This document shows positions 11,630-51,566 of a stretch of 64,000 nucleotides of DNA, piece after piece. This DNA comes from Rhodobacter sp. NTK016B (GTDB taxonomy: Bacteria; Pseudomonadota; Alphaproteobacteria; Rhodobacterales; Rhodobacteraceae). The translations under genes and the position numbers were made by a program. Within the stretch, counting starts at the first letter, position 1. Each line of letters begins with the position of its first letter. The stretch is from the NCBI RefSeq assembly GCF_017303295.1, contig NZ_JAFKOK010000002.1, forward strand, positions 248,001-312,000. Direction: 5' to 3'. The notes beneath the pieces are model-generated. The model saw nothing but the letters and a program-made list of their open reading frames with translations, did no database searches and was not told where the DNA came from.

Positions 11630-11641
11630 AATAGCCCAAGA

Positions 11642-13493: not shown

Positions 13494-13495
13494 TC

Positions 13496-13786: not shown

Positions 13787-13845
13787 CGCCTTTTTCTGCC
13801 CCCGCGCACCGGGGGCAGCGATGGACGTCAGGGAAAGGACACACC

Positions 13846-14226: not shown

Positions 14227-14414
14227 CCGCCCGCGCCATGTTTCACAAACGCGATTTGACCCGAGCTTGGGAAACCGCACAGGCTTGCGGTCTCAACATC
14301 GCGCGGACCGAGATCGGAACAGACGGAAGCATCGTCATCGTCCATGATAGCCCCGCCGAGAAAGGCACCGAACCGAAATCGGCCTATGACGAATGGAGGG
14401 CGAAACGTGGTTAA
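14223..14414 (+). CDS. Small conserved-type prophage protein upstream of integrase
   Basis: 63 residues (MTARAMFHKRDLTRAWETA, then IARTEIGTDGSIVIVHD). Proteins of this type, with an N-terminal helix and a three-strand sheet, are often found directly before integrases in alphaproteobacterial phages, where they might assist excision; this is context-based. Its stop overlaps the integrase GTG by 8 bases. Confidence 0.6.
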   Translation: MTARAMFHKRDLTRAWETAQACGLNIARTEIGTDGSIVIVHDSPAEKGTEPKSAYDEWRAKRG

Positions 14415-34411: not shown

Positions 34412-35791
34412 TTATTCAGCCGGGCTGACCGACGGGTGAAGCGCCTCGGGATAGGCCGACGCGGGAACCTTGACCGCATCGAGCCCCCGGATCTCGGCCT
34501 CTTCGGGAACGCGCAGCTGGCCCGTGACCTTCAGCAGGAACGACACGCCATAGCCCGGCACGAAGCCCAGAAGACCCATGACGACGGCACCGATCAGCTG
34601 GCCGGTGAACGAGATCTGGATCACGTCTTCACCGAACAGCGCGGGATAGCCCTGCGCGGCGATGCCGACGGCGATCACGCCCCACATGCCGAGGAACCCG
34701 TGCACCGCGAAGGCGCCGACCGCGTCGTCGATCTTGCGGCGCTCGATGAACGAAGCGACGAAGGGCATCATCGCGGCACCGAGGAAGCCGATCACGAAGG
34801 CCATCGGCGGGTACCACAGGTCAAGCCCGGCCGCGCACGAGATGATCCCGCCCAGCGCGCCCGACATCATCCAGAACGGATCGCGGGTCACCATCCAGGC
34901 ACCGATGATGCCGCCGGCAAAGCCCATCAGCGTGTTGAAGGTCATGCCCGAGATCGTCATCGGCGTGCCGTAGATCGTCGCTTCGATCGCGTTGCCCCAC
35001 GACCAGGCCTCGCCCGGAACGATGACGCAGCCCATCAGGAAGCCCCAGAACCCGGCGATGATCAGCATCAGCCCGATCAGCGTCATCGGCATCGAGTGAC
35101 CGGCGATATGGTTGGCGCTGCCATCGGCATTGAACTTGCCGATCCTCGGCCCGAGATTGATCAGCACGCCCAGCGTGAAGAAGCCCGCGATCATGTGCAC
35201 GACACCCGCCGCGCCGAAATCGTGGTAGCCGAATTGCGTGACCAGCCAGCCATCCGCGTGCCAGCCCCAAGCGCCACCCAGGATCCACACGAACGAGCCC
35301 AGCACGATCGCCAGAACGACGAATCCCGTCAGCTTGATACGCTCGATCACGCCGCCCGACATGATCGACGCGGTGGTCGCGGCAAAGAGCACGAAGGCCC
35401 CCCAGAAGACGCCCGACGAGCGGTCATCGAGATTGGGGCCCATATAGTCGCTCCACGGCAGGGCGACGTCGTTGGCATAGGCCAGCCCCGAGATGCCCAT
35501 CGCGCCCTCGGACAGCGTCAGCCCGGTGGGGAACGCCCAGTAGATCCACCAGCCGATGAAATAGAAGAACGGCACGATCATCGCGAAGGCGAGGATGTTC
35601 TTGATGCCTGAGGCGAGCGCGTTCTTCGACCGCGAAGCGCCCATTTCGTAGGCGAGGAACCCGGCATGGATCAGAACCATGAGCGGGATCGTCAGGTAAT
35701 AGAATGTCTCCGAAAACGTGCCGTTGGTGGCGGCAAGGTTCCCCTGTATCTCGGCGATCGATGCCGCCAAGGATGCGAGTTCCTGTTCCAC
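34412..35791 (-). CDS. amt: Ammonium transporter Amt
   Basis: 459 residues from GTG at 35791 (GGGAG site upstream). Eleven-span Amt fold. The twin pore histidines are present: GVVHMIAGF (His168 of AmtB) and FAVHGFLGMWG (His318), and the FHDFG-type motif YHDFGAAG precedes the first. It passes ammonium or methylammonium into the cell. There is no glnK gene next to it, unusual for amtB, and a longer N-terminus than AmtB. The TTGGT-N4-ACCAA operator lies 43 bases upstream, tying it to the methylated-amine genes. Confidence 0.93.
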   Translation of the reverse strand: MEQELASLAASIAEIQGNLAATNGTFSETFYYLTIPLMVLIHAGFLAYEMGASRSKNALASGIKNILAFAMIVPFFYFIGWWIYWAFPTGLTLSEGAMGISGLAYANDVALPWSDYMGPNLDDRSSGVFWGAFVLFAATTASIMSGGVIERIKLTGFVVLAIVLGSFVWILGGAWGWHADGWLVTQFGYHDFGAAGVVHMIAGFFTLGVLINLGPRIGKFNADGSANHIAGHSMPMTLIGLMLIIAGFWGFLMGCVIVPGEAWSWGNAIEATIYGTPMTISGMTFNTLMGFAGGIIGAWMVTRDPFWMMSGALGGIISCAAGLDLWYPPMAFVIGFLGAAMMPFVASFIERRKIDDAVGAFAVHGFLGMWGVIAVGIAAQGYPALFGEDVIQISFTGQLIGAVVMGLLGFVPGYGVSFLLKVTGQLRVPEEAEIRGLDAVKVPASAYPEALHPSVSPAE

Positions 35792-35833: not shown

Positions 35834-35847
35834 TTGGTTTGAACCAA
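35834..35847. promoter_or_regulatory. GntR-type operator upstream of amt
   Basis: Perfect palindrome TTGGTTTGAACCAA (TTGGT-N4-ACCAA). Same motif as at 42240-42253 and, with one change, 49405-49418. Resembles FadR-subfamily GntR sites. Confidence 0.6.
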
Positions 35848-36279
35848 TTTCTTCTGCTGGCTCACTCAGTGACGACAATCAGAGCGGAGGAAATCACCTC
35901 AGGTCAAAAATTTTTCTTCTAGAGAATTTAGTAGCGCATGAATTTGGACCATGAAAGCGAGCATTGCGACCGGAAAGATGAAAATATGCGCGCCCCACGC
36001 ACATGATGCAGGCTTAAAAACAAGGCCTATGTGGGCCTGGCGGGGATCTTGGCCGCGGAAAAGATGCGCAAGAGATTCGTCCAATCGGTCAGGTCACACG
36101 CCACGGGAAGCAATATTGGTCCATTGGTCCCGTGATGACGCGCACAATCATAGGTAGCAGCACCCGTTTCGCCGCCTGCCCTCTGGCTCGGTGCCCCGAA
36201 CGCCCCCGGTACGCCCCATCCATTGCTTTTCATTTTCGGACATCCTATTCCGATTTTCGGCCCAGTCGGGATACCCGCC
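35848..36279. other. Intergenic region between amt and the GlxA-type regulator
   Basis: AT-richer DNA without a gene. A direct repeat of TTGGTCC (36116-36122 and 36124-36130), half-sites of the amine-gene operator, lies about 150 bases before the regulator start. No riboswitch or RNA gene recognised. Confidence 0.45.
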
Positions 36280-37227
36280 ATGAAACGCATCGCCTTTCTG
36301 CTGATCGACGGACACGCGCTTTTATCGACCGCCTCGGCGCTCGAGCCGTTGCGCGCGGCGAACCTGTTTTCGGATGGCGCGGCCTTCGAGGTGACGCTGC
36401 TGTCGCGCAACGGCGGGGCGGCCTTGTCCTCGGTCGGGGCCAGTTTTCCGACTCGCGCCTATCGCGAGGTCGCGCTCGATTTCGACCTGATCTTCGTGGC
36501 AGCGGGCGGTGATCCCGCGCGGGTCTCCGACCCCGCGCTCTTTGCGTGGCTCAGACAGGCCGACAGGCAGGGGATCGCTCTGGGCGGAATTTCCGGCGGG
36601 GCGGTGATCCTTGCCAAGGCGGGGCTGCTCGACCAGCGCCGGTTCACCGTCCACTGGCACCATTACGAGGATTTCGAGAAGCTGGGCGGCGCATGGCTGC
36701 TGGAGCGGCGGCTCTTCGTCATCGACCGCGACCGCTATACCTGCGCGGGGGGCGCGGCGCCTCTGGACATGATGCATGCAATCATCGCCCGCACGCATGG
36801 CACGGCCTTCGCCCAGCGCATTTCCGACTGGTTCATCCAGACCGAGATCCGCAGCCCCGAAGCGCCGCAGACCGCCTCGATCGAGTCGCGCTACGGCGCC
36901 CTGCCCCGCGCGGTGACGGCGGCGCTTGAGCTGATGGAATCGCATATCGCCGACCCGCTGTCACACGAACAGATCGCGGCGCTGGCCGGTTTGTCGGGAC
37001 GGCAATTGCAGCGCCAATTCAATGCCAGCCTCGGCCGGTCCGTGATGGCCGAGTATCGCCGCATCCGGCTGGAAACCGCGCGCGAGCTGATCGTCTCGAC
37101 GCGCCTGCCCTTGTCCGAAATCGCCCTGATGACGGGTTTCGCGCGGCAGGCGAACTTCACCGAGGCCTTTCGCAGCCAGTTCGGCGCCGCCCCGTCGTCG
37201 CTGCGCCCCCGGAAGGGCGCGGCCTAG
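36280..37227 (+). CDS. GlxA/GbdR-type AraC regulator (DJ-1/PfpI domain plus HTH)
   Basis: 315 residues. N-terminal DJ-1/PfpI-like amidase domain (about 1-190; ALGGISGGAVILAKAGLL) and C-terminal AraC double HTH (about 215-310; LSHEQIAALAGLSGRQLQRQF, LPLSEIALMTGFARQANFTEAF). This class includes GbdR and CdhR, activators for glycine betaine and carnitine catabolism, so regulation by a methylated amine fits the neighbourhood. Inference from class and context. Confidence 0.87.
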   Translation: MKRIAFLLIDGHALLSTASALEPLRAANLFSDGAAFEVTLLSRNGGAALSSVGASFPTRAYREVALDFDLIFVAAGGDPARVSDPALFAWLRQADRQGIALGGISGGAVILAKAGLLDQRRFTVHWHHYEDFEKLGGAWLLERRLFVIDRDRYTCAGGAAPLDMMHAIIARTHGTAFAQRISDWFIQTEIRSPEAPQTASIESRYGALPRAVTAALELMESHIADPLSHEQIAALAGLSGRQLQRQFNASLGRSVMAEYRRIRLETARELIVSTRLPLSEIALMTGFARQANFTEAFRSQFGAAPSSLRPRKGAA

Positions 37228-37416
37228 ACCCCGCATGCCCCCCATGTTGCCCTTCCCCGCAGGAAGACTATTTGCCCCGGCGGAAGAGCTTTCAGTCAGC
37301 CGTTGCGCGCCCTGCGCGGTTCGGCGCGCTTTGCAACGCCTGAAAACTGGGGCACATACACAGCCTCACGGGAATGACCGGCCCACGAGCCGGAACGCGG
37401 AAGAGAGACAATCGTA

Positions 37417-38067
37417 ATGACCAAAGCCGTGGGGACCGAAGCCGTGTCCAAGCTGACGCAAGACCCGCACAGCGTGCGCGAGGAACGCGAGAAGATCCTC
37501 GAGGTGGCCATCGGTCGCGAAGTCCGCGCCTATCGCAAGCAGCAGAACATCACCGTGGCCGAGCTGTCCAAGCTGACCGACCTGTCGATCGGGATGCTGT
37601 CGAAGATCGAGAACGGCAACACCTCGCCCTCGCTGACCACCTTGCAGACGCTGGCCAACGCGCTGTCGGTGCCGCTGACCGCCTTCTTCAAGGGATACGA
37701 GGAACGCAGGCAGGCTGTGCACACCAAGTCCGGTCGCGGGGTCGAGATCGAGCGGGCCGGCACCCGGGCGGGGCATCAATACAAGCTTCTGGGGCATATC
37801 GGCTCGAATTCGAGCGGCGTGATCGTCGAGCCCTACCTGATCCAGCTCGATTCTGAATCGGACGTGTTCAAGACCTTCCAGCACGACGGGATCGAGATGA
37901 TCTACATGCTGGAAGGCAAGATTGATTACCGCCACGGGGCCGAGATGTATCCGCTGGAACCGGGCGACACGCTGTTCTTCGATGCAGACGCGCCGCACGG
38001 GCCCGAACGGCTGGTGCAACTGCCAGCGCGCTATCTGTCGATCATCAGCTATCCGCGCGAGAAATGA
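37417..38067 (+). CDS. XRE-cupin transcriptional regulator
   Basis: 216 residues. HTH_3 at about 35-90 (VAELSKLTDLSIGMLSKIENGNT), cupin_2 at about 145-205 (HDGIEMIYMLEGKIDYRHG, LEPGDTLFFDADAPHGPE). Such regulators sense small metabolites through the cupin barrel, often in amine, polyamine or glutamate catabolism. Convergent with the dimethylamine monooxygenase operon across a terminator. Likely controls it or another amine gene set. Confidence 0.88.
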   Translation: MTKAVGTEAVSKLTQDPHSVREEREKILEVAIGREVRAYRKQQNITVAELSKLTDLSIGMLSKIENGNTSPSLTTLQTLANALSVPLTAFFKGYEERRQAVHTKSGRGVEIERAGTRAGHQYKLLGHIGSNSSGVIVEPYLIQLDSESDVFKTFQHDGIEMIYMLEGKIDYRHGAEMYPLEPGDTLFFDADAPHGPERLVQLPARYLSIISYPREK

Positions 38068-38071
38068 CGAA

Positions 38072-38098
38072 AAAGGCCCCCGGATCGCGGGGGCCTTT
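38072..38098. terminator. Bidirectional terminator between regulator and dimethylamine operon
   Basis: AAAGGCCCCCG (38072-38082) with CGGGGGCCTTT (38088-38098), loop GATCG. Gives a T-run on either strand for the convergent genes ending at 38067 and 38114. Confidence 0.8.
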
Positions 38099-38113
38099 CG
38101 TCATCTCTGCCGG

Positions 38114-39181
38114 TCACTTCTGTAGTGGCGGCTCGGTGTCCAGATCGGGCCAGACGCCGGGCGAGGTGGGCAGCCCGTCGTCGTATTGGCTCAGGTAATC
38201 CAGCATCATGGGCCGGTTGGCGATGAAGCCTTTGTAGGTCGCCAGTTCCTCGGGCAGGTCGCGCACCACCCGGTGGAGGCGACGTCCCCATTTGGGCACC
38301 GTGACCAGATCCTGAAACGCGATCAGGTAGCAGCGAATCGGGAAGACCAGCGCATTCGAACGCGGCAGCCGGTAGAAGGTCTGCAACTCGACCCGCAGAT
38401 GCTGCTTGGCGCCGATATTCTCTGGCGTGAGCTCGGTCTTCTGGATGCCCCATTTGTGGTAATTCTCGGGGCTGGTATCCAAGAGCGGGTTGACCGTCAT
38501 CGTCCAGTTCAGCCGCCGCGCCGGCGCGCCCTGCTGCACGTTCATCAGGAATTTCAGCGCGCGCTTGAAGATCCCCATCTCATGCGCCAGCGGCACCGGC
38601 GCGTGCCATTCGAAGAAATTCATGCCGATGTCGAAATCCAGCGACCAGTCGGCCTGCGTCGTCACCATCCCGGCATCCATCCACAGATTGTCATCGCGCT
38701 GATCCAGCACGGCGAAATCGCCCTGCGTCTGACGGGTGATGTATTCCATCGGGCCGTAAGGCAGCGTGGTTTCGTCCATGAAGGTGAAGGTGTCGTCGAT
38801 CCCCATCGGCCTGTTCACCCAGCGCCAGCGGTCGCCGTCGCGGTGCAGCTCGAACAGGTCGGGATAATCCTCGGATTTCGAGACCATGATGAGTTCCAGC
38901 AGATCCCAGCCGGCCAGCGTCATATGTGGCAGCGACTGGCAGCGCAGGGGATCTTCAGCCAGCACCAGCGCGCGGTCGCGCATCTCGGACACGTAGTGCT
39001 CGTCTACATCGAAGCGCTTCTCGTAGACGGACCCCGCCGGACCGCCGCGATGCTGCTCCATGTTGACCGAGTACATGTAGCTGTCTTCGTGGAACGGAAA
39101 CGGGAAGCGCTTGATCGCCCAAGGCGAATTACGGAAAGAATAATCGCCGCGAAAGGTCTCGTCGTTGAACTGGATGGTCAT
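38114..39181 (-). CDS. Dimethylamine monooxygenase, heme (DUF3445) subunit
   Basis: 355 residues from the ATG at 39181, AGGGAG upstream. DUF3445, the heme-dependent oxidative N-demethylase family (HODM/Dmm large subunit), with the family-like EWHAPVPLAHEMG and LRVELQTFYRLPRSNALVF stretches. It removes one methyl group from dimethylamine with O2 and NADPH to give methylamine and formaldehyde. Grouped with a ferredoxin-reductase and a CxxC small subunit, exactly the three-part enzyme described for DMA degraders. Symbols for the subunits differ in the literature, so none is given. Confidence 0.85.
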   Translation of the reverse strand: MTIQFNDETFRGDYSFRNSPWAIKRFPFPFHEDSYMYSVNMEQHRGGPAGSVYEKRFDVDEHYVSEMRDRALVLAEDPLRCQSLPHMTLAGWDLLELIMVSKSEDYPDLFELHRDGDRWRWVNRPMGIDDTFTFMDETTLPYGPMEYITRQTQGDFAVLDQRDDNLWMDAGMVTTQADWSLDFDIGMNFFEWHAPVPLAHEMGIFKRALKFLMNVQQGAPARRLNWTMTVNPLLDTSPENYHKWGIQKTELTPENIGAKQHLRVELQTFYRLPRSNALVFPIRCYLIAFQDLVTVPKWGRRLHRVVRDLPEELATYKGFIANRPMMLDYLSQYDDGLPTSPGVWPDLDTEPPLQK

Positions 39182-39191
39182 TCGATGCTCC

Positions 39192-40178
39192 CTATCGGTC
39201 CAGAACCAGCGTCGGGCCGACAAAGCGGCTGACGCAGGGCATGATCTTGGTGCCGCTCGCCTGCTGATCGTCTTCCAGCCAGTGGTCGCGGTGGATGAAT
39301 TCGCCTTCATGCTCGACGACATCGGTTTCGCATTGCCCGCAGGCGCCGCCCCGGCACAGGAAGGGCGCGTCGACGCCGCAGCGCTCCATGGCTTCCAGCA
39401 GGCTTTCATTTTCGCCCACCCGGATCGTCATGTCGGATTTGCACAGCCGCACCTCGAAGGGCTTGCCGGGTTGCGGGGCGAGGAATTCCTCGGAATGCAC
39501 GTTGTCTTCGGGCCAGCCATGGTCGGTGGCGGTGCGGTGCACCCACTCGATCATGCCCTTGGGGCCACAGACATAGACATGCGTGCCCAGCGGTTGCCCG
39601 TCGAGCAGATCGCCCAGCGGAATCGCCTGTTTGCGGTCGTCGTAATAGATGCGGACTTTGCCGGGATGGCGGGCGGTCAGAACATCGGCATAGGACGCGA
39701 GTGCCTCGTTGCGACAGGCGTAATGCAGTTCCCACCGCGCGCCGAGCTTCTCAAGCTGCGCGATCATCGCAAGGAAGGGCGTGATGCCGATCCCACCGGC
39801 AAGAAACACATGCTTGCGCCCGCGCAGATCGACCGGGAACAGGTTGACCGGATAGGACAGCGTCATCCGGTCGCCGGGCTTCACGTTGCGATGCAGGAAC
39901 AGCGATCCGCCCCGCCCCTGATCGTCGCGGCGGACCGAGATGGCGTAGGTGCCGGGATCGGCGGGGTCCGACATCAGCGAATAGGGGTTCAGGCGCGTGC
40001 GGCCCGCATCGTTCATCTCGACCACGGTATGCGCCCCGGCCGAAAACGGCGGAAAGGGCGCGCCGTCGGGGCGCTGGAATTCGAAACGGGTGACCAGTTC
40101 GTTGACCGGCACGACGGCGCTGACGATCACTTCGATCTTCTCGGCGCCGGCCTTGGTTTTCTGGGGGGCGGCGCTCAT
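39192..40178 (-). CDS. Dimethylamine monooxygenase reductase subunit (FAD/NADPH, plant-type 2Fe-2S)
   Basis: 328 residues of the phthalate-dioxygenase-reductase/VanB type: FMN/FAD domain (NPYSLMSDP), NAD(P) domain (FLAGGIGITPFLAMI, VYVCGPKGMIEW) and C-terminal 2Fe-2S ferredoxin (CRGGACGQCETDV). It passes electrons from NADPH to the heme subunit. Starts inside the stop of the small-subunit gene (ATGA) and ends ten bases before the heme subunit. Confidence 0.88.
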   Translation of the reverse strand: MSAAPQKTKAGAEKIEVIVSAVVPVNELVTRFEFQRPDGAPFPPFSAGAHTVVEMNDAGRTRLNPYSLMSDPADPGTYAISVRRDDQGRGGSLFLHRNVKPGDRMTLSYPVNLFPVDLRGRKHVFLAGGIGITPFLAMIAQLEKLGARWELHYACRNEALASYADVLTARHPGKVRIYYDDRKQAIPLGDLLDGQPLGTHVYVCGPKGMIEWVHRTATDHGWPEDNVHSEEFLAPQPGKPFEVRLCKSDMTIRVGENESLLEAMERCGVDAPFLCRGGACGQCETDVVEHEGEFIHRDHWLEDDQQASGTKIMPCVSRFVGPTLVLDR

Positions 40179-40783
40179 TTGTACAGCTCCACGGGTTCGG
40201 GGACATTACCGGGATCCTCGGCGTCGATGCAGACGGCCTGAAAGGCGGCAAGGCGGCGCGAATAATGGTCGCGCACGAACAGGTTCAGCCCGCAATGCGA
40301 ACAGGTGAAGGGATCGGTGGTCACGTCCTCGGTGATGCCCTTGCAATGAACGCATTGCATCCGCCGCGCGACCGAGCCGCGATGCTCTGTCTGCACCGCG
40401 CCAAGGGGAATACCCGCCGCCGCGACCTCTGCCGCGGCGCGGCCCATCAGACCTTCAGTTCCAGCCAGATAGACTTGCAGGCCCATATGCGCGTCCGACA
40501 GCACCCGGCGCAGGCGCGGCAGCGCAGCATCGAAGCTGGGGCCCACATAGAACTGCGCGGGTTCAAGCGCGCGCAGCCGGTCGGTATAGGCCTGACCGGT
40601 GGTGCGCGGGATATAGAGGATATGCGCCTTGGCCATCAGGCCCACATCCTGCGCGGCCAGATCGAGCAGCGCCTCGGCCCCTTCGGCATCGGCGATCATC
40701 AGATGCGCCTTTCCCGGTCGCGGCGCGAGGGTGCCATAGACCGGCCGGCTCGCAATGCTCTTGGGGAACTGGAATTTCGACAT
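40175..40783 (-). CDS. Dimethylamine monooxygenase small subunit (DmmA-family-like)
   Basis: 202 residues. The N-terminal 150 residues look like a flavodoxin- or nucleotide-binding alpha/beta domain without clear catalytic motif; the C-terminus has a rubredoxin-like pair CVHC and CSHC (about residues 147-168). Located first in the three-gene monooxygenase set, coupled by ATGA. Matches the third subunit of about 22 kDa reported for bacterial dimethylamine monooxygenase. Assigned mostly from context. Confidence 0.72.
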   Translation of the reverse strand: MSKFQFPKSIASRPVYGTLAPRPGKAHLMIADAEGAEALLDLAAQDVGLMAKAHILYIPRTTGQAYTDRLRALEPAQFYVGPSFDAALPRLRRVLSDAHMGLQVYLAGTEGLMGRAAAEVAAAGIPLGAVQTEHRGSVARRMQCVHCKGITEDVTTDPFTCSHCGLNLFVRDHYSRRLAAFQAVCIDAEDPGNVPEPVELYK

Positions 40784-40810
40784 TGCGGCAGTTACTCCCG
40801 TTGTCCTGTT

Positions 40811-40852
40811 GCCTGTTGCGAAACAGGCGCCACCCGCAGGGGGAGCGCCTGT
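40811..40852 (-). other. Overlapping stem-loops between GcvT-like and monooxygenase genes
   Basis: GCCTGTT (40811-40817) can pair with AACAGGC (40822-40828), and ACAGGCGC (40823-40830) with GCGCCTGT (40845-40852). The two hairpins share bases and exclude each other. Either could tune expression between the genes; no long T-run. Confidence 0.4.
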
Positions 40853-40862
40853 CGTTGTGGGG

Positions 40863-42008
40863 TCAGCCCTTGGCGGTGCGGATGACCTTGTCCTTGTCGT
40901 AGAAGGGCATCTCTTCGGTCACGCAGGGGATTTCGGTCCCGTCCGCGTTGACCACCACCATCTTGGTGCCGGGCACCGCACAATCGACGGGCATCCGGGC
41001 GATGCCGACATTGTGGTTGTTCAGGCTCGAATGCATCCCGAAGGTCACGAGGCCCACTTCCTTGCCGTCCTTGACCAGCTTGGCGCCGATATCGGCCCGG
41101 GTCGTGCCCTCAAGCTTCACGCCGTAGATCTTGAACCGCTCCTTGCCCTTGAGGGCGTAGTGGTTCTCGGCCCCGCGGAAACCGGTCTTGCCCGGCGAGA
41201 CGGTGAAATCGAGGCCCAGCTCCCACAGCGTGTCGCCCGCCGGCTCATCCGCGAAGGGGAAGGTTTCGGAATTGTCGCCGGGGAAGAACAGCAGGTAGCT
41301 TTCCGTGCGCAGCAGATCGAGGGTCGAGAACTGCACGGGCCGGATGCCCATATCCTTGCCCTCGGACAGGATCGTGTCCCACAGCTCGAGCGCATGACGC
41401 CCTTCGCAGAAAATCTCGTAGCCGCGCTCGCCCGTATAGCCGGTGCGCGAGATCATCACCGGCTTGCCGAACAGCTTGGTCTGCATGATGCCGAAATATG
41501 CGAGATCGCGGATACCGGGCACATGCTTGGCCAGAAAATCGACGGCCACCGGCCCCTGAAGCGACATGTCGTGCAGGCTGTCGTCGAAGATCATCGAGAC
41601 ATTCTTGCCGAAGGCGGCCATGGCCATGGATTCGTGGCCCGTACCCGCGCCATGGACGACCATCCAGTGATTGACCGACAGCCGGTAGATCACGCAATCG
41701 TCGATGAACTTGCCCTCGTCATTGAGCATCGAGGCATAGATCGCGCGGCCCGGCATGATCTTGTCGACATTGCGGGTGGTGACGCGGTCAATGACGGCAG
41801 CGGCATGCGGTCCAACCAGATGAACCTTTTTCAGACCAGAGACATCCATCAGGCCCGCTTTGGTCCGAACGGCGAGGTAATCCGCCTCGGCGCGCTCGTC
41901 GCTGTGGTCGTAGAACCACGCGGTGCCCATGCCGTTCCAATCTTCCAGCTCGCCGCCGATCTCGGCATGGCGCTGCGCAAGCGCCGAGGTTCTGTAGATA
42001 ATCGCCAT
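40863..42008 (-). CDS. GcvT-like THF-dependent aminomethyltransferase (DMA cluster)
   Basis: 381 residues from the ATG at 42008, with GGGAGG upstream. Full GcvT/YgfZ fold: VSGLKKVHLVGPHAA, SRTGYTGERGYEIF, TLDLLRTESYLLFF, AENHYALKGKERF. Members bind tetrahydrofolate and take up a methylene group. First gene of the dimethylamine monooxygenase operon, where it probably captures the formaldehyde released by demethylation as methylene-THF (the dmmD position). The paralogous domain in Tdm does the same for TMAO. Confidence 0.82.
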   Translation of the reverse strand: MAIIYRTSALAQRHAEIGGELEDWNGMGTAWFYDHSDERAEADYLAVRTKAGLMDVSGLKKVHLVGPHAAAVIDRVTTRNVDKIMPGRAIYASMLNDEGKFIDDCVIYRLSVNHWMVVHGAGTGHESMAMAAFGKNVSMIFDDSLHDMSLQGPVAVDFLAKHVPGIRDLAYFGIMQTKLFGKPVMISRTGYTGERGYEIFCEGRHALELWDTILSEGKDMGIRPVQFSTLDLLRTESYLLFFPGDNSETFPFADEPAGDTLWELGLDFTVSPGKTGFRGAENHYALKGKERFKIYGVKLEGTTRADIGAKLVKDGKEVGLVTFGMHSSLNNHNVGIARMPVDCAVPGTKMVVVNADGTEIPCVTEEMPFYDKDKVIRTAKG

Positions 42009-42237
42009 GTTTTGACCTCCCAAGGCATCACTGTCTCACCGCATACAGCCGCAGCGCCCACCAAAAATCAACACTTTAGTTCACATTTGTTTCCTGAAGG
42101 GAAATTCCCGCGCAGCCCGATTCAGCGCGCCGAAAGGCTGCGCAAAAGGTTGATCATGCTTTGAAAACCGGGACGATTCAGAAATCCCCCCAAACGACCC
42201 GGTGTCTTCCCGCAAAAAGGATAGCGTCCAAAAAATG

Positions 42238-42255
42238 CATTGGTCCAGACCAATG
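42238..42255. promoter_or_regulatory. GntR-type operator upstream of the dimethylamine operon
   Basis: CATTGGTCCAGACCAATG, an 8-2-8 palindrome with core TTGGT-N4-ACCAA, 230 bases upstream of the GcvT-like start in the 335-base gap 42009-42343. No riboswitch is recognised in the gap. Confidence 0.6.
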
Positions 42256-42343
42256 TTCAAAATCCGGGCAGATTGGATCAACGCGAGGGCGGTTCAGGAA
42301 GCGCCGAGAGGTCACAGAAAAGAATCACCCGGGCGCAATCCGG

Positions 42344-42754
42344 TCAGTCCGCCTCGCCGCGCCAGTCGGGCACGTCGTTGACCAGCTTGTGCGCCGCGCG
42401 GCGCAAGGTGGCGCGCAGGCGCTCGACGACCGGCCCGGTCATCGCGCAATCGTGCAGCGCCGCATCGAATGTCTGCAGCCACAGCTCGGCATCGGCGCTG
42501 CGGATCGGCACATGGGCGTGGATCTCGCGCAGGTTCATGTGCCCGTGCCGCTCGCGGTAATAGGCCCGTCCGCCCAGAAACCCGCACAGGAACTCGAACT
42601 GGGCCTGCCGCGTATGCGACAGACCATGCCCACGGAAATGCAGACGGTGCAGGGCATGCACCGCCGGGTCGGTTTCCATCCGGTCGTAGAACCGGGTGAC
42701 GAGCCGGTGCAAAGCCGCCTCGCCGCCCAGCGCGTCGAGCGGGGTCGCGCTCAC
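42344..42754 (-). CDS. Truncated haemoglobin, group II-like
   Basis: 136 residues from a GTG at 42754 that overlaps the tdm stop (GTGA). 2-on-2 globin: FYDRMETDPAVHALHRLH, FLGGRAYYRERHGHMNLREIH with the proximal His at the end, and a C-terminal helix with WLQTFD. Binds O2 or NO at a heme. Translational coupling to tdm means it is made with the TMAO demethylase and it may supply oxygen to, or protect, the oxygen-using amine enzymes. Role inferred. Confidence 0.82.
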   Translation of the reverse strand: MSATPLDALGGEAALHRLVTRFYDRMETDPAVHALHRLHFRGHGLSHTRQAQFEFLCGFLGGRAYYRERHGHMNLREIHAHVPIRSADAELWLQTFDAALHDCAMTGPVVERLRATLRRAAHKLVNDVPDWRGEAD

Positions 42755-45120
42755 GAGCGCGGGCGCGTCTTCTGCGGGTCGTAATGCGCGAAGGCCACGA
42801 TCCGCGCGGGCAGGCGCTTCTGGTGGCCGTCGAGCTTGCCGATCTCGACCTCGGTTCCCTCGGCGTGATGGGCCACATCGACCCGCGCCAGCGCGATATT
42901 CTTGCCCAGAAGCGGCGAGCGCATGGACGACGTCACCTCGCCGATCTGTGCCCGTCCGATATGGACGCAATCGCCGTGACCCACCGCGACATTGCTGTCG
43001 ATATCCAGCCCCACCAGCTTGCGCGCGGGGTGCTCCTTGCGCCGGATCAGCGCGTCGCGGCCGATGAAATCGTCGGGCTTCGACTTCAGCGGCACGGTGA
43101 AGCCGATCCCCGCCTCGAACGGGTCGGTCTGGTCGCTGAAATCGTAGCCCGCGAAAATCAGCCCGGCCTCGATCCGTAGCATGTCCAGGGCTTCCAGCCC
43201 CATCGGTTTCAGCCCGTGCGGCTGCCCGGCCTCCCACACGGCGTCGAAAACCGCGCTTGCGTGTTTGGGGTGGCAGAAGATCTCATAGCCCAGCTCGCCG
43301 GTGTAGCCGGTGCGCGAGACGACGACGGGCACGCCCTGATCGTCGCCAATGCGCGCGGGGGCAAAGCGGAACCAGTCGAGCGCATCGAAGCGGGGCTGGT
43401 GCGGCGCGGTCCAGATCACCTTTTTCAGGATCTCGCGGCTTTCCGGCCCCTGCACGGCGATGTTGTGCTGCATGTCGGTCGAGGCGCGCACAAGCACCTT
43501 CAGCCCCAGCTCGGTCGCCTTCTCGCGCAGCCATTCGCCGCCGTAATCCGACCCGCCGATCCAGCGGAAATTGTCGCGACCCAGACGGAACACGGTGCCG
43601 TCGTCGATCATCCCGCCATGCGGGTAGCACATCGCGGTATAGACCACGCCGCCCACGGGAAGCGTCTTCATGTTGCGGGTAAAGACATACTGGCACAGCG
43701 CCTCGCTGTCCGGCCCCGTAATCTCGAATTTTCTGAGCGCGCTGAGGTCCATCACCACCGCCTTCTGGCGGCAGGCGTGGTATTCCTCGATCGGGCCGGC
43801 GGTCGACATGCAATTGGCCAGCCAATAGCCGTTATACTCGACGAAATTCTGGGTGAAGCGGGCGAAACTGTCGTGAAAGCCAGTCTGTTTGGTCATTTTC
43901 GGCTCCGAATCGGGCGTCGGGCGATAGGCGATGGCCCGCTGAAAGGTTTCCTTGCCGCTATAGGTGCGGACATGGATGTCGGTCGGGTTCCAGCCATTCG
44001 CGGCCGAGGTGTCATCCGGGCAGGCGGAACTCACGCAGACCAGATCGGTCAACGCTCGCAGCAGGACGTAATCGCCGGGCCGCGACCACGGCTCGTCTGA
44101 ATACATCACGCCGTGCTCATCGAGCCCGGTATTGAAGAAGAAGTTGATCGCCATCCAACCACGCCGCGCCGTCACGCCATGCGGGGCCAGGGCTGCGTTG
44201 AAATTGTCCGAGCAATTGACATGCCCCGGATAGCCGATGTCGTCGTAATACTTCGACGAACAGGCGAGCGCGAAGGCATCGTGGCGCCCGCAGGTATCCT
44301 GCACCACCTCGACAAGCGGCAGCATGTCGTGGTCGTAGTATTTCGCGTGCAGCCCCGGCATCGGATAGGCGTGTTCCATCAGCGTCCGCGTGGTCGTCAC
44401 GTCCAGCGCATGGACCACGCCCTTGTCGAGCTTGCGCGCGGCGAAGCATTGGAAATCCGTGCATTGCCGTCCGTCGACATCAAGGATCTGGATATAATCG
44501 CCCGCCTTGACGAAATAGGCCTCGGCGGTGGCGGAATGGACGCGGATATCGCTGACCGGCTCGGCCAGCGGGTCGGGCAACTCAAAGCGCGGCGCCTGTT
44601 TGATGACCGCACGACGCACCATCACCGTGAGCGGCGTCGCGGTATCCTGCGCTTCGAAATCCATGATCCCGCCCGGTGCGGCAAGGATCGCTACCCCCTC
44701 GCGCGTCGCGGTGAAGCTTTCCGAGGCACCCGCCGGGGTCTGGCTGTCGAAGAGCGTGATGGCCGTGGCGCGGGATAGGTCGATGCCGCGCGCCTCAAGC
44801 CCCAGACGCAGACTGCGAAGCGAGGCATCGCCGCCCGTGACCAGCGCCATCAGCCCCTTTGGCGCAGCCGTCGCCGGAACGCCAAGGATCCCGGGATCGC
44901 TGGCGCCCTTGGGATCGGCGCAGACGATCTCGCAGGGCTGACCGCCCTCGGTATTCTGCACCTCGATCCGGTCGCCCGGTTCAACGCGGATCAGGATCGC
45001 GCCCGCGCCCTCGACGACATAGCGCTCAGTTCCCGGCGGCATCGAGAAGACGCGCGGCTGGATCAGGCCGCTGGGCCGGGGCGGACCGGCTTTCACCGAG
45101 GGGTATTTGTCGTCCAGCAT
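42751..45120 (-). CDS. tdm: Trimethylamine N-oxide demethylase (aldolase) Tdm
   Basis: 789 residues with the two-part Tdm layout. The N-terminal half is DUF1989-like (about 20-385), with metal-site Cys candidates Cys277 (DTCGRHD), Cys303, Cys362 and Cys367 (SSACPDD). The C-terminal half is a GcvT/THF-binding domain (about 415-780; SRTGYTGELGYEIFC, GLEALDMLRIEAGLIF). Tdm splits TMAO into dimethylamine and formaldehyde, which the THF domain captures. It sits 37 bases after folD and is read with fhs-folD and the globin. Ribosome site AAGGG. Confidence 0.9.
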   Translation of the reverse strand: MLDDKYPSVKAGPPRPSGLIQPRVFSMPPGTERYVVEGAGAILIRVEPGDRIEVQNTEGGQPCEIVCADPKGASDPGILGVPATAAPKGLMALVTGGDASLRSLRLGLEARGIDLSRATAITLFDSQTPAGASESFTATREGVAILAAPGGIMDFEAQDTATPLTVMVRRAVIKQAPRFELPDPLAEPVSDIRVHSATAEAYFVKAGDYIQILDVDGRQCTDFQCFAARKLDKGVVHALDVTTTRTLMEHAYPMPGLHAKYYDHDMLPLVEVVQDTCGRHDAFALACSSKYYDDIGYPGHVNCSDNFNAALAPHGVTARRGWMAINFFFNTGLDEHGVMYSDEPWSRPGDYVLLRALTDLVCVSSACPDDTSAANGWNPTDIHVRTYSGKETFQRAIAYRPTPDSEPKMTKQTGFHDSFARFTQNFVEYNGYWLANCMSTAGPIEEYHACRQKAVVMDLSALRKFEITGPDSEALCQYVFTRNMKTLPVGGVVYTAMCYPHGGMIDDGTVFRLGRDNFRWIGGSDYGGEWLREKATELGLKVLVRASTDMQHNIAVQGPESREILKKVIWTAPHQPRFDALDWFRFAPARIGDDQGVPVVVSRTGYTGELGYEIFCHPKHASAVFDAVWEAGQPHGLKPMGLEALDMLRIEAGLIFAGYDFSDQTDPFEAGIGFTVPLKSKPDDFIGRDALIRRKEHPARKLVGLDIDSNVAVGHGDCVHIGRAQIGEVTSSMRSPLLGKNIALARVDVAHHAEGTEVEIGKLDGHQKRLPARIVAFAHYDPQKTRPRS

Positions 45121-45157
45121 GGGATCACCCTTTCGCTTGGCGTTCTGTCTCTGCGTC

Positions 45158-46048
45158 TCAGGCCGTCAGCCCTTCGGGTTCGGGCAGGCCATGCGCGCGG
45201 CAGCAGGCGGTCACGGTATTGGCCAGAAGGCAGGCGATGGTCATCGGCCCTACCCCGCCCGGCACCGGCGTGATCGCGCCCGCGACCGCCGCACAGCTGT
45301 CATAGTCGCAATCGCCCACCAGCTTGGTCTTGCCGTCACGCTCGATCCGGTTGATGCCGACATCGATTACCGTGGCGCCCGGCTTGATCCAGTCCCCCGG
45401 CACCATTTCGGGCCGGCCCACGGCGGCAACCACGATATCGGCGCGGCGGACGGCCTCGGGCAGATCCTTGGTGCGGCTATGCGCGATGGTCACCGTGCAG
45501 CTGTCGCCCAGCAGCAACTGCGCCATCGGCTTGCCGACGATGTTCGAGCGCCCGATCACCACCGCATCCATTCCCGACAGGCTGCCGTGAAGATCACGCA
45601 GCATCATCAGACAGCCCAGCGGCGTGCAGGGGACCATGGATTTCTGCCCCGTGCCCAGCAGCCCGACATTCGAGATATGGAACCCGTCCACATCCTTGGC
45701 CGGGTCGATGGCGTTGATGATCAGATCTTCGTTCAGATGCCCTGGCAGCGGCAATTGCACGAGGATCCCGTGCACCGCCGGATCGGCGTTGAGCCGCGCG
45801 ATCAGTTCCAGCAGCGCCTCTTCGCTGGTCGAGGGCAGAAGCTTGTGCTCGAACGAATTCATGCCCGCCTCGACCGTCTGCTTGCCTTTCGAGCGGACAT
45901 AGACCTGGCTTGCGGGGTCCTCGCCCACCAGAACCACGGCAAGCCCCGGCGTGATCCCATGATCCGCCTGCAGCCGGGCGACATGGGTCGCTACCTCGCC
46001 GCGAATGCGGGCCGCAAAGGCCTTTCCGTCAATGATTTGAGCCGTCAT
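45158..46048 (-). CDS. folD: Methylene-THF dehydrogenase / methenyl-THF cyclohydrolase FolD
   Basis: 296 residues. Family motifs: [14 protein letters not shown] with the catalytic Lys, [10 protein letters not shown], and [18 protein letters not shown]-type Rossmann site. Oxidises methylene-THF from Tdm and the GcvT-like protein to formyl-THF. Between fhs (60 bases upstream) and tdm, forming a dedicated C1-oxidation operon. Confidence 0.96.
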
Positions 46049-46108
46049 TTTCGATCCTCGTTTCGGTCGAAGCGTCGGGGCGACCCGGTGGGGCCGCCCG
46101 TCCCATCC

Positions 46109-47785
46109 TCAGAACAGGCCTTCGATCTGACCGTCATCGTTCAGGCGGATGCTCAATGCGCTGGGTTGGCGCGGCAGGCCCGGCATGGTCATGATCTCGC
46201 CGCAGACCACGACGACGAAGCCCGCCCCGGCGCTGAGCCGCACCTCGCGCACGGGCACCGAATGCCCCGTGGGCGCGCCGCGCAGGTTGGGATCGGTCGA
46301 GAACGAATATTGCGTCTTCGCCATGCAGACCGGCAAATGGCCGTATCCCTGATCTTCCCACAGCTTGAGCTGATCGCGGATTTTCTTGTCCATCAGCGCC
46401 TCGTCGGCCCGGTAGATGCGCTTGCAGATGGTCTGGATCTTGTCGGCCAGCGACATCTCGTCGGGATAGATCGGCGCGAAATTGGCCTGCCCCGCCTCGG
46501 CGATCTCGGCCACCTTGCGGGCGAGATCCTCGGACCCTTCCGAGCCCAGTTCCCAGTGACGCGACAGAACCGCGACGGCGCCCTGCTGGGCCACATAATC
46601 CTTCACCGCCTGAACCTCGGCCTCGGTATCGGTGACGAAATGGTTGATCGCCACCACGACCGGCACGCCAAAGCTTTTCAGGTTCTCGATATGACGGCCC
46701 AGATTGGGGCAGCCCTTTTTCACCGCCTCGACGCTTTCGGCGCCCAGATCGGCCTTGGCCACGCCGCCATTCATCTTCATCGCGCGCACCGTGGCCACGC
46801 AGACCACGACCGAGGGCGCCAGCCCCGCCTTGCGGCACTTGATGTTCATGAATTTCTCGGCACCCAGATCCGCGCCGAAGCCCGCCTCGGTGACCACGTA
46901 ATCCGCAAGCTTCAGCGCCGTCGTCGTGGCGATGACCGAGTTGCAGCCATGGGCGATATTGGCGAAAGGCCCGCCATGCACGAAGGCCGGATTGTTTTCC
47001 AGCGTCTGCACGAGGTTGGGCTGCATCGCGTCCTTCAGCAGGACGGTCATCGCGCCTTCGGCACCGATATCGCGGCAAAAGACCGGGCTGCGGTCGCGGC
47101 GATAGGCCACGATCATGTCGCCCAGCCGCTTTTCCAGATCTTTCAGGTCATTGGCCAGACACAGGATCGCCATCACTTCGGACGCCACGGTGATGTCAAA
47201 GCCCGCCTCGCGCGGGAAACCGTTGGCGACACCGCCCAGCGAACAGGTGATCTGCCGCAGCGCGCGGTCGTTCATGTCGACCACCCGGCGCCAGACGACT
47301 CGGCGGATGTCGATATCCTGCTCGTTGCCCCAGTAGATATGGTTGTCGATCATCGCCGACAGCAGCGAATGCGCGCTGGTGATCGCGTGGAAATCGCCGG
47401 TGAAGTGCAGGTTCATCTCTTCCATCGGCACGATCTGCGCGTATCCGCCGCCCGCGGCGCCGCCCTTCATGCCGAAGTTCGGGCCGAGGCTGGCTTCGCG
47501 GATGCAGACCATCGCTTTCTTGCCGATCCGGTTCAGACCGTCGCCCAGACCTACCGTGGTGGTGGTCTTACCCTCGCCCGCCGGGGTCGGGTTGATTGCG
47601 GTGACAAGGATCAGCTTGCCGTCGTCCCGGCCCTTGACCGAGTTGATGAAGCTCTGGCTGACCTTGGCCTTGTCGTGACCATAGGGCAGCAGGTCGTCGG
47701 CCGGGATGCCCAGCTTTTCGCCGATCTGCATGATCGGCTGTTTCTTGGCTTCGCGGGCGATCTGGATGTCACTCTTGTAGCTCAT
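46109..47785 (-). CDS. fhs: Formate-tetrahydrofolate ligase
   Basis: 558 residues, full length. P-loop [28 protein letters not shown] and [19 protein letters not shown] are characteristic. In methylated-amine users it runs toward formate and ATP from formyl-THF, completing methyl-group oxidation. First gene of the fhs-folD-tdm-globin transcript. Its 5' leader carries a hairpin (47822-47839). Confidence 0.96.
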
Positions 47786-47821
47786 GGTCCTCGCATCCTG
47801 TCGGTTTGTGTGGCTAAGGCA

Positions 47822-47839
47822 CTGCCCGTCATCGGGCAG
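47822..47839 (-). other. Stem-loop in the fhs leader
   Basis: CTGCCCG (47822-47828) with CGGGCAG (47833-47839), 4-base loop, about 37 bases before the fhs ATG. No known folate riboswitch pattern recognised. Confidence 0.3.
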
Positions 47840-47941
47840 AAATATTCCTTATGCTCAATCTTTTTTCTTTTCAGTCAACACAAGAATTGACGCCTCGGCA
47901 GTCGCCGCGTGCCTGCCTACAAGGCGCAACACGCTATTCCC

Positions 47942-47997
47942 GCCCGGAAGCAAAGACTTCCGGGCCGGGGAAAGGGCCGGCATTCAGACCGGCCCTT
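47942..47997 (-). terminator. Tandem stem-loops after tmm
   Basis: AAGGGCCGG (47972-47980) with CCGGCCCTT (47989-47997) lies 20 bases beyond the tmm stop; a second hairpin pairs GCCCGGAAG (47942-47950) with CTTCCGGGC (47957-47965). They separate tmm from the fhs operon on the same strand. Confidence 0.6.
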
Positions 47998-48017
47998 CAG
48001 GTCGAAACTGCGGGCGA

Positions 48018-49367
48018 TCAGTTGCGCAGATAGGCGGTCATGCTGTCGTCCAGCGCATCCTTCCACGGCGTGTGATGCACGGGCGCCATGGTGCCGGTGA
48101 TGACCGATTTGTACGAGTTGTTGCGGAAGCCCATGATGTCTTGCATCTTGTGCTTCTTCCACTCGAAGAAGGCCTGACAGGCGCCGTCGATGTCGAAGCT
48201 GGGATAATCCGTCTCGGCCACGAGTTCCTTTACGTAATCCGCCTGATACTGGATCGCGTATTTGGTGTCGTCGTCGGCTTCCTCGCGCTCTTCGCGCTCT
48301 TTCACATCAGCCAGCATCTGCTCTTTGGAGACCGCCGAAAGGTCGATCTTGCCCATGATCGCGTCCCGCGCCCACCAGGCCTGCGCGTCGAACATGTTGA
48401 AGGTGAACCACTGGTCCTGCATGCCGAGATAGAACAGCTTCGGGTTATGGACCCACGCCACGCCCTTATAGAGATCGGCGGTGGCGAGACGGTTGGCGGT
48501 CTTCAGCCGCAGATCGTCGGGCAGGAAGTTGAAGAAGTGCTTGTAGCCGGTGCACAGGATGATCGCATCGACTTCCTTGCTCGACCCGTCCTTGAAATGC
48601 GCGACGTTGCCGTCGACCTTGACCAGCGCGGGCTTTTCTTCCCAATTGTCGGGCCAGGCGAAGCCCATCGGCGCCGAGCGGTAGCAACTGGTGATCGACT
48701 TGGCGCCGTATTTCCAGCATTGCGACCCGATATCCTCGGCCGAGTAGGACGCCCCCATCACGAGGATGTCCTTGCCCGCGAATTCGCGCGCGTCGCGGAA
48801 GTCGTGGGCATGCAGCAAGCGACCGTTGAAGCGCTCGAACCCTTCGTAATACGGGACGTTCGGCGTCGAGAAATGGCCCGAGGCGACGACGACGTTGTCG
48901 AATTCCTCGCTGTAGACGTAATCCTTCTGGTGGTCGTGCAGCGTCACCGTGAACTTGCCGGTATTGTTGTCGTAGTCGATCCAGCGCACCGCGGTGTTGA
49001 AGCGGATCCAGTCGCGCACATTGGCCTTTTTCACGCGGCCTTCGATATAGTCGAACAGCACGGCACGCGGCGGGTACGAGGCGATCTGCTTGCCGAAATG
49101 CTCCTCAAAGGAATAATCGGCGAATTCCAGCCCCTCCTTGGGGCCGTTGGACCACAGGTAGCGGTACATCGAGCAATGCACCGGCTCGCCGTTTTCATCC
49201 ACCCCGGTGCGCCACGTGTAGTTCCACAGCCCGCCCCAATTGTCCTGCTTCTCGAAGCAGACGATCTCGGGGATTTCCTCGCCATTGGCGGCGGCGGACT
49301 GAAAGGCGCGAAGCTGCGCCAGACCCGACGGCCCGGCACCAATGATCGCGACACGTTTCTTGCTCAT
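48018..49367 (-). CDS. tmm: Trimethylamine monooxygenase Tmm
   Basis: 449 residues from the ATG at 49367 (AAGGGAG upstream). Class-B flavin monooxygenase: FAD site [22 protein letters not shown] site [17 protein letters not shown], and [14 protein letters not shown]. Close in pattern to bacterial Tmm along its whole length ([41 protein letters not shown]). It oxidises trimethylamine with NADPH and O2 to TMAO, the substrate of Tdm. Some related FMOs are broader, so dimethyl sulfide may also be oxidised. The operator lies over the probable -35 region. Confidence 0.93.
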
Positions 49368-49394
49368 GAGTGGCTCCCTTGTCGAATTTTTTAA

Positions 49395-49418
49395 TTGGTT
49401 CCATGTGGTCCGGACCAA
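49395..49418. promoter_or_regulatory. Operator and promoter region of tmm
   Basis: Palindrome TGGTCCGGACCA (49406-49417), i.e. GTGGT-N4-ACCAA, with an extra half-site TTGGTTCC at 49395-49402. On the minus strand TTGGTC, 17 bases and ATTAAA form a possible promoter whose -35 lies within the palindrome. Confidence 0.6.
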
Positions 49419-49598
49419 AGTACGCCGCCAGCAGACCAAAATGTCAACAATAATTCACGGCAGGCATATGTTTTCATTGCCAGGAGCATCATTTCCCTTT
49501 TGACTTCAAAGGGTCCGGTGCTACGAATTGGCATGCTCAACTCCAGTTTCGCGCACCGTATGGCGGTGACCTCGCTGTTTCCCCAGAGCCGAGTCGGC

Positions 49599-50846: not shown

Positions 50847-51566
50847 TTAGCCGTCGTGCAGGAACAGTTTCTGCTCTTCGACCAGATGCAGCTTGGTGAT
50901 CTCGACCGCGGCCTCGACATCGCGGGTGGCGATGGCGTTGAACAGCGAGTTGAAGCGCGTCTGGTATTCCTGAATCCGGTCGGGCGTCAGGTGCTTGCGC
51001 ATCAGCGCGGTGCGGAAGGACTGCCGGCAGACCTCGATCGTCAGCTCATAGCAGGATTCCAGCAGCGGGTTGCGCGTCGCCTTCGCGATGCGGCGATAGA
51101 ATTCTTCTTCGCAGCGAATGAACTCGTTTAGATCGGTGCGCACCGCCTCGATCTGCGCGACGGTCTGGGCCAGCGCATCAAGCTCGCGCGGGGTCATGTT
51201 CATCACCGCCAGCCGCGTCATCTCGGGCTCGATGATCGAGCGCACGATCAGGTGGTCAAGCGGGCTGGTACGCTCGCCGATGGAATCGGGCGAGGGCGTT
51301 TCGGGACGCTCGGATTGATAGATCACGAAACTGCCGCTGCCCTGCCGCCGGCGGATAAGCTTGCGCGTTTCCAGCACATCCAGCGCCTCGCGCACGGTAT
51401 TGCGCGACACCCCAAGCTCGGCCGCCAGCGCGCGTTCGCTGGGCAGGCGGGAATCGGGGGGGTATTCGCCCGAGCGGATCCGCGCATACAGCGTGTCGAT
51501 CACGATGCGGACGGTTTCGCCGACCGTCTGGCCGATGGGCAGCTCCGCTGTGGGCAAAGAGTTCAT
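50847..51566 (-). CDS. GntR family (FadR/FCD) transcriptional regulator
   Basis: 239 residues from the ATG at 51566. wHTH (PPDSRLPSERALAAELGVSR, TVREALDVLETRKLIRRRQ) and FCD domain (LDHLIVRSIIEPEMTRLAVM, FIRCEEEFYRRIAKATRN). The FCD subfamily binds TNGT-Nx-ACNA palindromes, matching the TTGGT-N4-ACCAA sites at amt, the dimethylamine operon and tmm, so it is the prime candidate for their regulator. Its own upstream region has no clear copy. Convergent with the sensor-like gene, 13 bases away. Confidence 0.88.
   Translation of the reverse strand: MNSLPTAELPIGQTVGETVRIVIDTLYARIRSGEYPPDSRLPSERALAAELGVSRNTVREALDVLETRKLIRRRQGSGSFVIYQSERPETPSPDSIGERTSPLDHLIVRSIIEPEMTRLAVMNMTPRELDALAQTVAQIEAVRTDLNEFIRCEEEFYRRIAKATRNPLLESCYELTIEVCRQSFRTALMRKHLTPDRIQEYQTRFNSLFNAIATRDVEAAVEITKLHLVEEQKLFLHDG

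Follow-up and report, generated by a model that had tools for sequence, protein, structure and literature searches.

Methylated amines are notable among the nitrogen sources in the sea. In one model strain, two regulators of their breakdown have been reported (PMC13390433). The window (the whole stretch of DNA that we analysed, 64,000 nucleotides long) encodes monooxygenases for trimethylamine and dimethylamine, two members of the ammonium transporter family, and a GntR-type regulator. A sequence-only reading had proposed that this regulator acts on tmm, the dimethylamine operon, and an ammonium transporter gene through a shared palindrome, TTGGT-N4-ACCAA. Is the palindrome the operator of this regulator, and how many of the three targets does it control? 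Our preferred answer, to which we assign a probability of about 0.72, is that TTGGTNYRNACCAA is the operator of TmoR, which would block tmm, would put the transporter gene amt1 under a dimethylamine signal, and may reach the dmm genes. TmoR is already known as a repressor of tmm; the N4 operator and the amt1 link are put forward here. We found no TmoR operator sequence in the literature searched, a scope that did not take in Lidbury 2016, which is said to be the first report of TmoR. A defined operator would make the TmoR regulon readable from genomes, so that departures from the model strain become visible, and at amt1 it would bring a transporter with no specified role to date under the dimethylamine signal.

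The features are as follows.

34412..35791, minus strand: amt1, Ammonium_transp family (domain search), both pore histidines kept (alignment)
35834..35847, minus strand: predicted TmoR operator upstream of amt1, TTGGTTCAAACCAA (exact copy, conservation)
36223..37227, plus strand: GlxA-type AraC regulator with DJ-1/PfpI and HTH_18 domains (domain search)
38114..42008, minus strand: dmmDABC, dimethylamine monooxygenase operon (domain search; dmmD start taken at 42008)
42069..42088, minus strand: second conserved dmmD element, AAATGTGAACTAAAGTGTTG, at about -80 (promoter alignment)
42240..42253, minus strand: possible TmoR operator far upstream of dmmD, TTGGTCTGGACCAA (exact copy; also a terminator-like hairpin with a T run)
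48018..49367, minus strand: tmm, FMO-like trimethylamine monooxygenase (domain search)
49405..49418, minus strand: predicted TmoR operator at tmm, TTGGTCCGGACCAC (alignment, motif counts)
49533..50834, plus strand: gene for a Peripla_BP_6 protein, placed between tmm and tmoR and divergent from tmm; by eye the protein has no signal peptide
50847..51566, minus strand: tmoR, GntR/FCD regulator (GntR and FCD domains; named via synteny with PMC13390433)
51703..53076, minus strand: amt2, divergent Ammonium_transp family protein adjoining tmoR, without both pore histidines (alignment of 5 sequences)

The regulator and the copies of the palindrome

The sequence-only reading had placed a GntR/FCD gene at 50847-51566, and the domain search found both domains. 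By synteny we identify its product as TmoR: tmoR is usually separated from tmm by one gene (PMC13390433), and the order in the window (tmm, the binding-protein gene, tmoR) fits. The protein is 84% identical (local alignment) to the one at the same place in Ruegeria pomeroyi SZCCDBG043, the strain used for this comparison in place of DSS-3. Among 394 genomes of the family (a sample of a larger group), 22 have a tmoR match at E <= 1e-50, our own genome included. In R. pomeroyi DSS-3, TmoR (SPO1553) is a published repressor of tmm; its DNA-binding domain binds the tmm promoter, and its effector is dimethylamine and, weakly, TMAO (PMC13390433). A word search of that paper found no mention of a motif, operator, binding site, or footprint.

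The three palindromes lie where the sequence-only reading had put them, all with the N4 spacing, and the one at 42240-42253 does sit within a longer palindrome, of 18 bp. The amt1 site (TTGGTTTGAACCAA, 35834-35847) has 42 bases between it and the start codon at 35791; the dmmD site (TTGGTCCAGACCAA) lies 231 bases upstream of its gene (ATG at 42008); and the tmm site (GTGGTCCGGACCAA, 49405-49418), which has one mismatch, lies 37 bases upstream of tmm (ATG at 49367). The sites at all three targets, across genomes, also have in common an NYRN centre (36/37 sites). Scanning for consensus sigma-70 promoters gave no match at any of the three sites.

The window holds 3 exact copies of TTGGT-N4-ACCAA; 100 shuffles gave 0.03 on average. 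A motif search of the whole genome (4.84 Mb), a check that the sequence-only reading had suggested, gave 5 exact copies versus 1 for the reversed control pattern; three of the five are in the window, one of them within a selD-like gene. Once the conserved centre is required (TTGGTNYRNACCAA), the genome has exact copies at amt and dmm alone. The pattern TGGTNYRNACCA has 14 genome copies, of which we place just the three reported sites outside genes. The remaining 11 sit within open reading frames according to a simple script, which also covered the 42240 and 49405 sites; we discounted both of those frames manually (one runs antisense to a globin gene and the other is the tmm frame extended upstream of its ATG).

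Could these be chance GT/AC palindromes in intergenic DNA? Exact copies do arise without a regulon, also inside genes: across 12 genomes we counted 1 to 12 exact copies, with 0 to 8 for the reversed control, and several of these genomes have no exact copy at tmm. The excess over shuffles in the window, the conservation of position and spacing across genera, and the absence of the motif from the two sets of comparison promoters described below (0/35 and 0/17) make chance a very improbable explanation. In P. marinus the only exact copies are those at tmm and dmmD, and in CCB-MM2 those at amt1 and dmmD, 34 kb apart.

The operator at tmm

We compared the tmm promoters of 30 genomes with tmoR (11 tmoR-holding loci of 80, the R. 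pomeroyi locus L023, and 18 further family genomes) to those of 35 loci without tmoR. G234, G186, and G282 were counted as the same genomes as G001, G004, and G008, and L176, L177, L178, L179, the 100-base L180, and L181-L183 were left out of the analysis. The motif, with at most one mismatch, is present in 24/30 tmm promoters with tmoR and in 0/35 without it, where absence of tmoR was assessed only within the retrieved stretch and the gene may lie elsewhere in the genome (Fisher 1.5e-12, with relatedness ignored). This makes it very probable that the motif is the TmoR operator. Five of the 30 promoters have only a copy with two mismatches, and G090 has none. The 18 tmoR genomes from the family search alone agree: the site was found in 13 of the 17 with sequence upstream of tmm (tmm of G258 was dropped because the match was at the contig edge or late, with no upstream sequence). 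R. pomeroyi SZCCDBG043 has the tmm site with one mismatch. When we compared spacers from N0 to N10, only N4 was enriched, and TTGGT ranked first of the 1024 five-base half-sites, both at tmm and at amt1.

Promoter alignment also identified a conserved TTGACA; the tmm site starts 23 bases behind it, which places the site directly behind the expected -10 position. A TmoR dimer on the palindrome would thus block initiation, if the -10 position is where we expect it, and dimethylamine (weakly TMAO) would be the effector, as published for R. pomeroyi. The operator at tmm is well supported, and it is here that the proposed assignment of the motif to the GntR protein holds strongly, given the promoter counts and the published binding in R. 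pomeroyi.

The sequence-only reading had likened the palindrome to FadR-type sites. FadR-subfamily operators are TKGT/ACMA palindromes with 3 or 2 bases between GT and AC, and most HutC-type sites have 4 (PMC4494728). TmoR resembles the FadR subfamily in its GntR and FCD domains, its TKGT/ACMA boxes, and an extra half-site near the tmm palindrome; unlike FadR-type operators, the predicted TmoR operator has 4 bases between GT and AC.

We considered and rejected a general TmoR site at tdm: just 5/81 upstream regions (350 bp each, window included) have a copy with at most two mismatches, and two of the regions, those of L051 and L076, have a copy with at most one.

An ammonium-type transporter as a second target

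The same operator lies 55-66 bp upstream of one group of Amt genes. It is found with at most one mismatch in 6/12 promoters, from four genus-level groups (five if a copy with two mismatches is included), and it is exact in G165, G150, G258, and CCB-MM2. TTGGT-N5-CCA is common to the amt1 promoters of seven genomes, and most of the flanking sequence differs. The motif is absent from all 17 other Amt genes (0/17), and amt2 has no copy with at most one mismatch within 350 bp upstream. The window-type Amt occurs in 10 of the 394 family genomes, and all 10 are among the 22 with tmoR; in G150 and G258, tmoR adjoins amt1-dmm, with tmm on another contig. On the other side, G342 and G007 have tmoR, and amt1 with its own upstream region, yet no site. 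In G058, G090, and G146, amt1 follows tdm and has no site of its own. The evidence for an operator at amt1 is good, and it suggests that TmoR also controls this ammonium-type transporter, as the sequence-only reading had supposed, with those two tmoR genomes as exceptions. The transporter would then respond to the same dimethylamine signal as tmm; that TmoR binds at amt1 and at dmmD, and in which direction it would act on the two, is what we infer.

Alternatively, TmoR control might stop at tmm, or perhaps take in the divergent binding-protein gene as well, so that the palindromes at amt1 and dmmD belong to another GntR-type regulator whose site is similar, or to none. Deletion of tmoR in R. 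pomeroyi altered only tmm among the trimethylamine genes tested, and the mutant resembled the wild type at tdm and downstream genes (PMC13390433). Within the pathway, tmm is the only reported target of TmoR; unlike that system, the window has sites at amt1 and dmmD too. SZCCDBG043 likewise carries the tmm site and no copy with at most one mismatch at dmmD, and the Amt encoded next to dmmD there belongs to another subgroup. However, this strain has no Amt of the site-carrying group (best 45%), so it is no test of amt1. The spacing and centre common to all three targets, and the confinement of amt1 to genomes with tmoR, also argue against this alternative, which we consider improbable.

Returning to TmoR control of amt1, what would be transported? 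The protein has the Ammonium_transp domain and the twin pore histidines that have a role in Amt ammonium channels. It may recover released ammonium, or it may equally take up methylated amines.

The dmmD site and the AraC regulators

We rejected one GntR regulon spanning amt, dmm, and tmm throughout the family, as the dmmD site is present in 3/31 tmoR genomes (dmmD upstream regions) and the motif is missing from the other Amt genes. The idea of one regulator, which is strong at tmm and supported at amt, is limited at dmm to three genomes, all Pararhodobacter-type. In these, the copy 231 bp upstream of dmmD may add TmoR control of the dimethylamine operon; we are unsure of an operator role here, and the R. 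pomeroyi deletion disagrees with it.

The 42240 palindrome might instead end the preceding operon as an intrinsic terminator. It scored as terminator-like, with a 7-pair stem, a 4-base loop, and then CATTTTTT on the minus strand, and a gene ends about 90-106 bases ahead of the palindrome (globin in the window, a glyA-like gene in CCB-MM2 as read from its translation). But despite the T run the stem is weak, with only 3 G-C pairs, and its folding is ordinary (z -1.43; 21/200 shuffles were as good); shuffles of the stretch average 0.9 terminator-like hits. Also, in all three genomes the arms are the exact TmoR consensus with an NYRN centre, and the palindrome keeps its position at -245 of dmmD while the preceding gene differs. 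A terminator is a less likely explanation for this one site, though one to be taken seriously.

In R. pomeroyi, the AraC-type master activator of tdm, dmm, gmaS-mgs, and mgd is TmaR (SPO1584); members of the main TmaR clade share more than 44% identity with the R. pomeroyi protein, and another clade is below 35% (PMC13390433). The window also has a GlxA-type AraC gene near dmm, but its product shares just 29% identity with the protein occupying the TmaR position in SZCCDBG043 (rather than DSS-3), too little for the main clade; the best match to that protein in the whole genome is 30%. The window protein could belong to the clade below 35%. Sites at amt1 or dmmD (at most two mismatches) occur in 7/14 genomes without a TmaR-like match (E <= 1e-50), our own included, versus 0/17 with one, a comparison that ignores relatedness.

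Might TmoR have replaced TmaR at dmm? This is weakened because a second AraC type is present, relatedness is uncorrected, and three of the seven site-carrying genomes are one Pararhodobacter-type group. The window type of AraC (at least 46% identity) is found in 10/13 other genomes without TmaR (the G009 copy has an internal stop), and the two types never occur together among the 30 tmoR genomes. More speculatively, and we are doubtful of it, in Rhodobacteraceae without main-clade TmaR, TmoR might be a wider dimethylamine-responsive regulator, acting via an atypical N4 operator on tmm, the tmoR-associated Amt, and the dmm genes of one group, with this Amt as a route for methylated-amine uptake and not a general ammonium channel.

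We also noticed exact copies elsewhere. The one in the selD-like gene (17443-17456), which the sequence-only reading did not list, has the centre GCTG, unlike the other sites. We rejected the extra exact sites in G004, G005, and G011 as new targets, as they are mostly inside genes (translations read) and inseparable from chance. One exact site in G004 lies between gltD- and gltB-like genes.

Palindromes and their gene neighbourhood

From the sequence alone, TTGGT-N4-ACCAA palindromes had been proposed as a shared operator linking amt, dmm and tmm, and a sequence check of the window found all three in place. The sites and the genes concerned are:

34412-35791 (-), amt1
35834-35847, palindrome upstream of amt1
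36223-37227 (+), AraC-type regulator gene
38114-42008 (-), dmmDABC
42069-42088, second element, near -80 of dmmD
42240-42253, palindrome upstream of dmmD
48018-49367 (-), tmm
49405-49418, palindrome upstream of tmm
49533-50834, binding-protein gene
50847-51566 (-), tmoR, a GntR/FCD gene named by synteny with TmoR of Ruegeria pomeroyi (PMC13390433)
51703-53076 (-), amt2

The order is amt1, AraC, XRE-cupin, dmmCBAD, the dmmD site, globin, tdm, folD, fhs, tmm, the tmm site, the binding-protein gene, tmoR and amt2. This grouping is already known because a 2015 legend names a roseobacter neighbourhood of folD, tmm, tdm, fhs, tmoR, amt and a binding-protein gene (PMC4744692), and a passage of a 2020 paper gives amt, fadR, glxA, XRE and a substrate-binding protein as recurrent neighbours of TMA/DMA/MMA genes (PMC7574528).

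The exact motif occurs 5 times in the genome as a whole (4.84 Mb in 86 contigs), versus once for a reversed control pattern. With its conserved centre, TGGTNYRNACCA, it has 14 copies versus 5 for the control, and only the three reported sites were placed outside genes (by an ORF script, with two script ORFs discounted by hand). A further exact copy in the window (17443-17456) is within a selD-like gene, which adjoins a prophage-like stretch (1559-15459) with portal, terminase and integrase genes.

The tmm promoter and tmoR

In R. pomeroyi DSS-3, TmoR is a GntR-family repressor of tmm whose main effector is dimethylamine. Its DNA-binding domain binds the tmm promoter, and on TMA the tmm transcript is about 4.4-fold higher without TmoR, while tdm and downstream genes are comparable; tdm, dmm, gmaS-mgs and mgd are under the control of an AraC-type activator, TmaR (excerpts of PMC13390433). 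The searched parts of that paper mention no motif, operator, binding site, footprint or amt.

We collected 80 loci around tdm, together with tmoR hits in 22 of 394 family genomes. Merging three duplicates left 30 distinct genomes with tmoR, not counting that of the window; all have tmm and dmmD. Of these, 29 have sequence upstream of tmm, and with the window they give 30 tmm promoters. When one mismatch is allowed, 24 of the 30 carry the motif in the 150 bp before tmm, versus 0 of 35 tmm promoters from loci that lack tmoR on the fetched stretch; with two mismatches allowed, the counts are 29/30 and 2/35. The family search alone contributed 18 genomes, 17 of them with upstream sequence, and 13 of these 17 have the motif at tmm. 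Other spacers (N0-N3, N5-N10) occur in at most 3 of the 30 promoters. Among all 1024 half-sites TTGGT scored highest (24), followed by its variant CTGGT (11), and the best unrelated half-site reached 6. A TmoR operator at tmm is a well-supported prediction.

The centre is pyrimidine-purine in 36 of 37 sites. At tmm, 17 of 28 sites start 22 or 23 bases behind TTGAC(A/T), and 15 of these have a further ACCAA 4-6 bases behind the palindrome; the remaining 11 are nearer to the start codon. Extra half-sites beside GntR-family palindromes are described in PMC4494728. In the same paper, GT and AC of FadR-type sites are separated by 3 or 2 bases; for an FCD-domain regulator, a spacer of N4 is therefore unusual.

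In a MAG titled uncultured Sulfitobacter sp., an exact copy (L167:3919-3932) sits about 180 bases ahead of a gltB-like gene, in the stretch between it and a gltD-like gene (names from reading translations), which could be chance.

Sites at amt1 and dmmD

Twelve genomes, including the window's, carry an Amt of the amt1 group (identity of 81% or more). Six of them have the site with no more than one mismatch (the window, Pararhodobacter marinus, CCB-MM2, G165, G150 and G258), and G051 has it with two mismatches; where present, the site starts 55-66 bases upstream of the start. It was not found upstream of amt1 in G342 and G007, nor in G058, G090 and G146, where amt1 comes directly after tdm. None of 17 other Amt genes (42-67% in local alignments) has it with at most one mismatch. 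An amt1-type Amt (E ≤ 1e-240) occurs in 10 of the 394 family genomes, every one of which belongs to the set of 22 that have tmoR. A tmoR relative adjoins amt1-dmm in G150 (57%) and G258 (55%), where tmm is on a separate contig, and in CCB-MM2 the sole two exact genome copies are those at amt1 and dmmD, 34 kb apart. Support for a predicted TmoR operator at amt1 is good. We infer both repression of amt1 by TmoR and the substrate of Amt1.

The window, P. marinus and CCB-MM2 have the site at -245 or -246 of dmmD; no dmmD site with at most one mismatch was found in the other 28 tmoR genomes, and the 42240 palindrome is terminator-like by scan, with an unremarkable fold. A predicted TmoR operator at dmmD is uncertain. 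The R. pomeroyi strain SZCCDBG043 has the site at tmm (one mismatch) and none at dmmD with at most one mismatch, which agrees with the lack of TmoR effect downstream of tmm reported in the excerpts of PMC13390433. The element near -80 (20 bases) is identical in the three genomes and recognisable in others without the distal site; it may be bound by the AraC or the XRE-cupin regulator.

AraC types and flanking genes

As a TmaR-like query we used the SZCCDBG043 protein at the TmaR position, named by position and length. It has matches (E ≤ 1e-50) in 17 of the 30 tmoR genomes; in the window's genome, its relatives reach only 30%. The window AraC type (at least 46%) is in 10 of the 13 other genomes without TmaR and in 0 of the 17 with it, which leaves 3 genomes with neither. 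The two were not found together in these 30 genomes, and the counts, uncorrected for relatedness, suggest two interchangeable types. Sites at amt1 or dmmD (at most two mismatches) occur in 7 of 14 genomes without a TmaR-like match versus 0 of 17 with one, again uncorrected for relatedness.

The binding protein encoded between tmm and tmoR may have an intracellular role, perhaps that of a sensor, because no signal peptide is visible by eye in 19 N-termini (window included) and a stop codon lies just 5' of the start in several of them. Amt2, whose gene adjoins tmoR, is a member of the ammonium transporter family; both pore histidines are missing in an alignment of five sequences, and it may carry another substrate.
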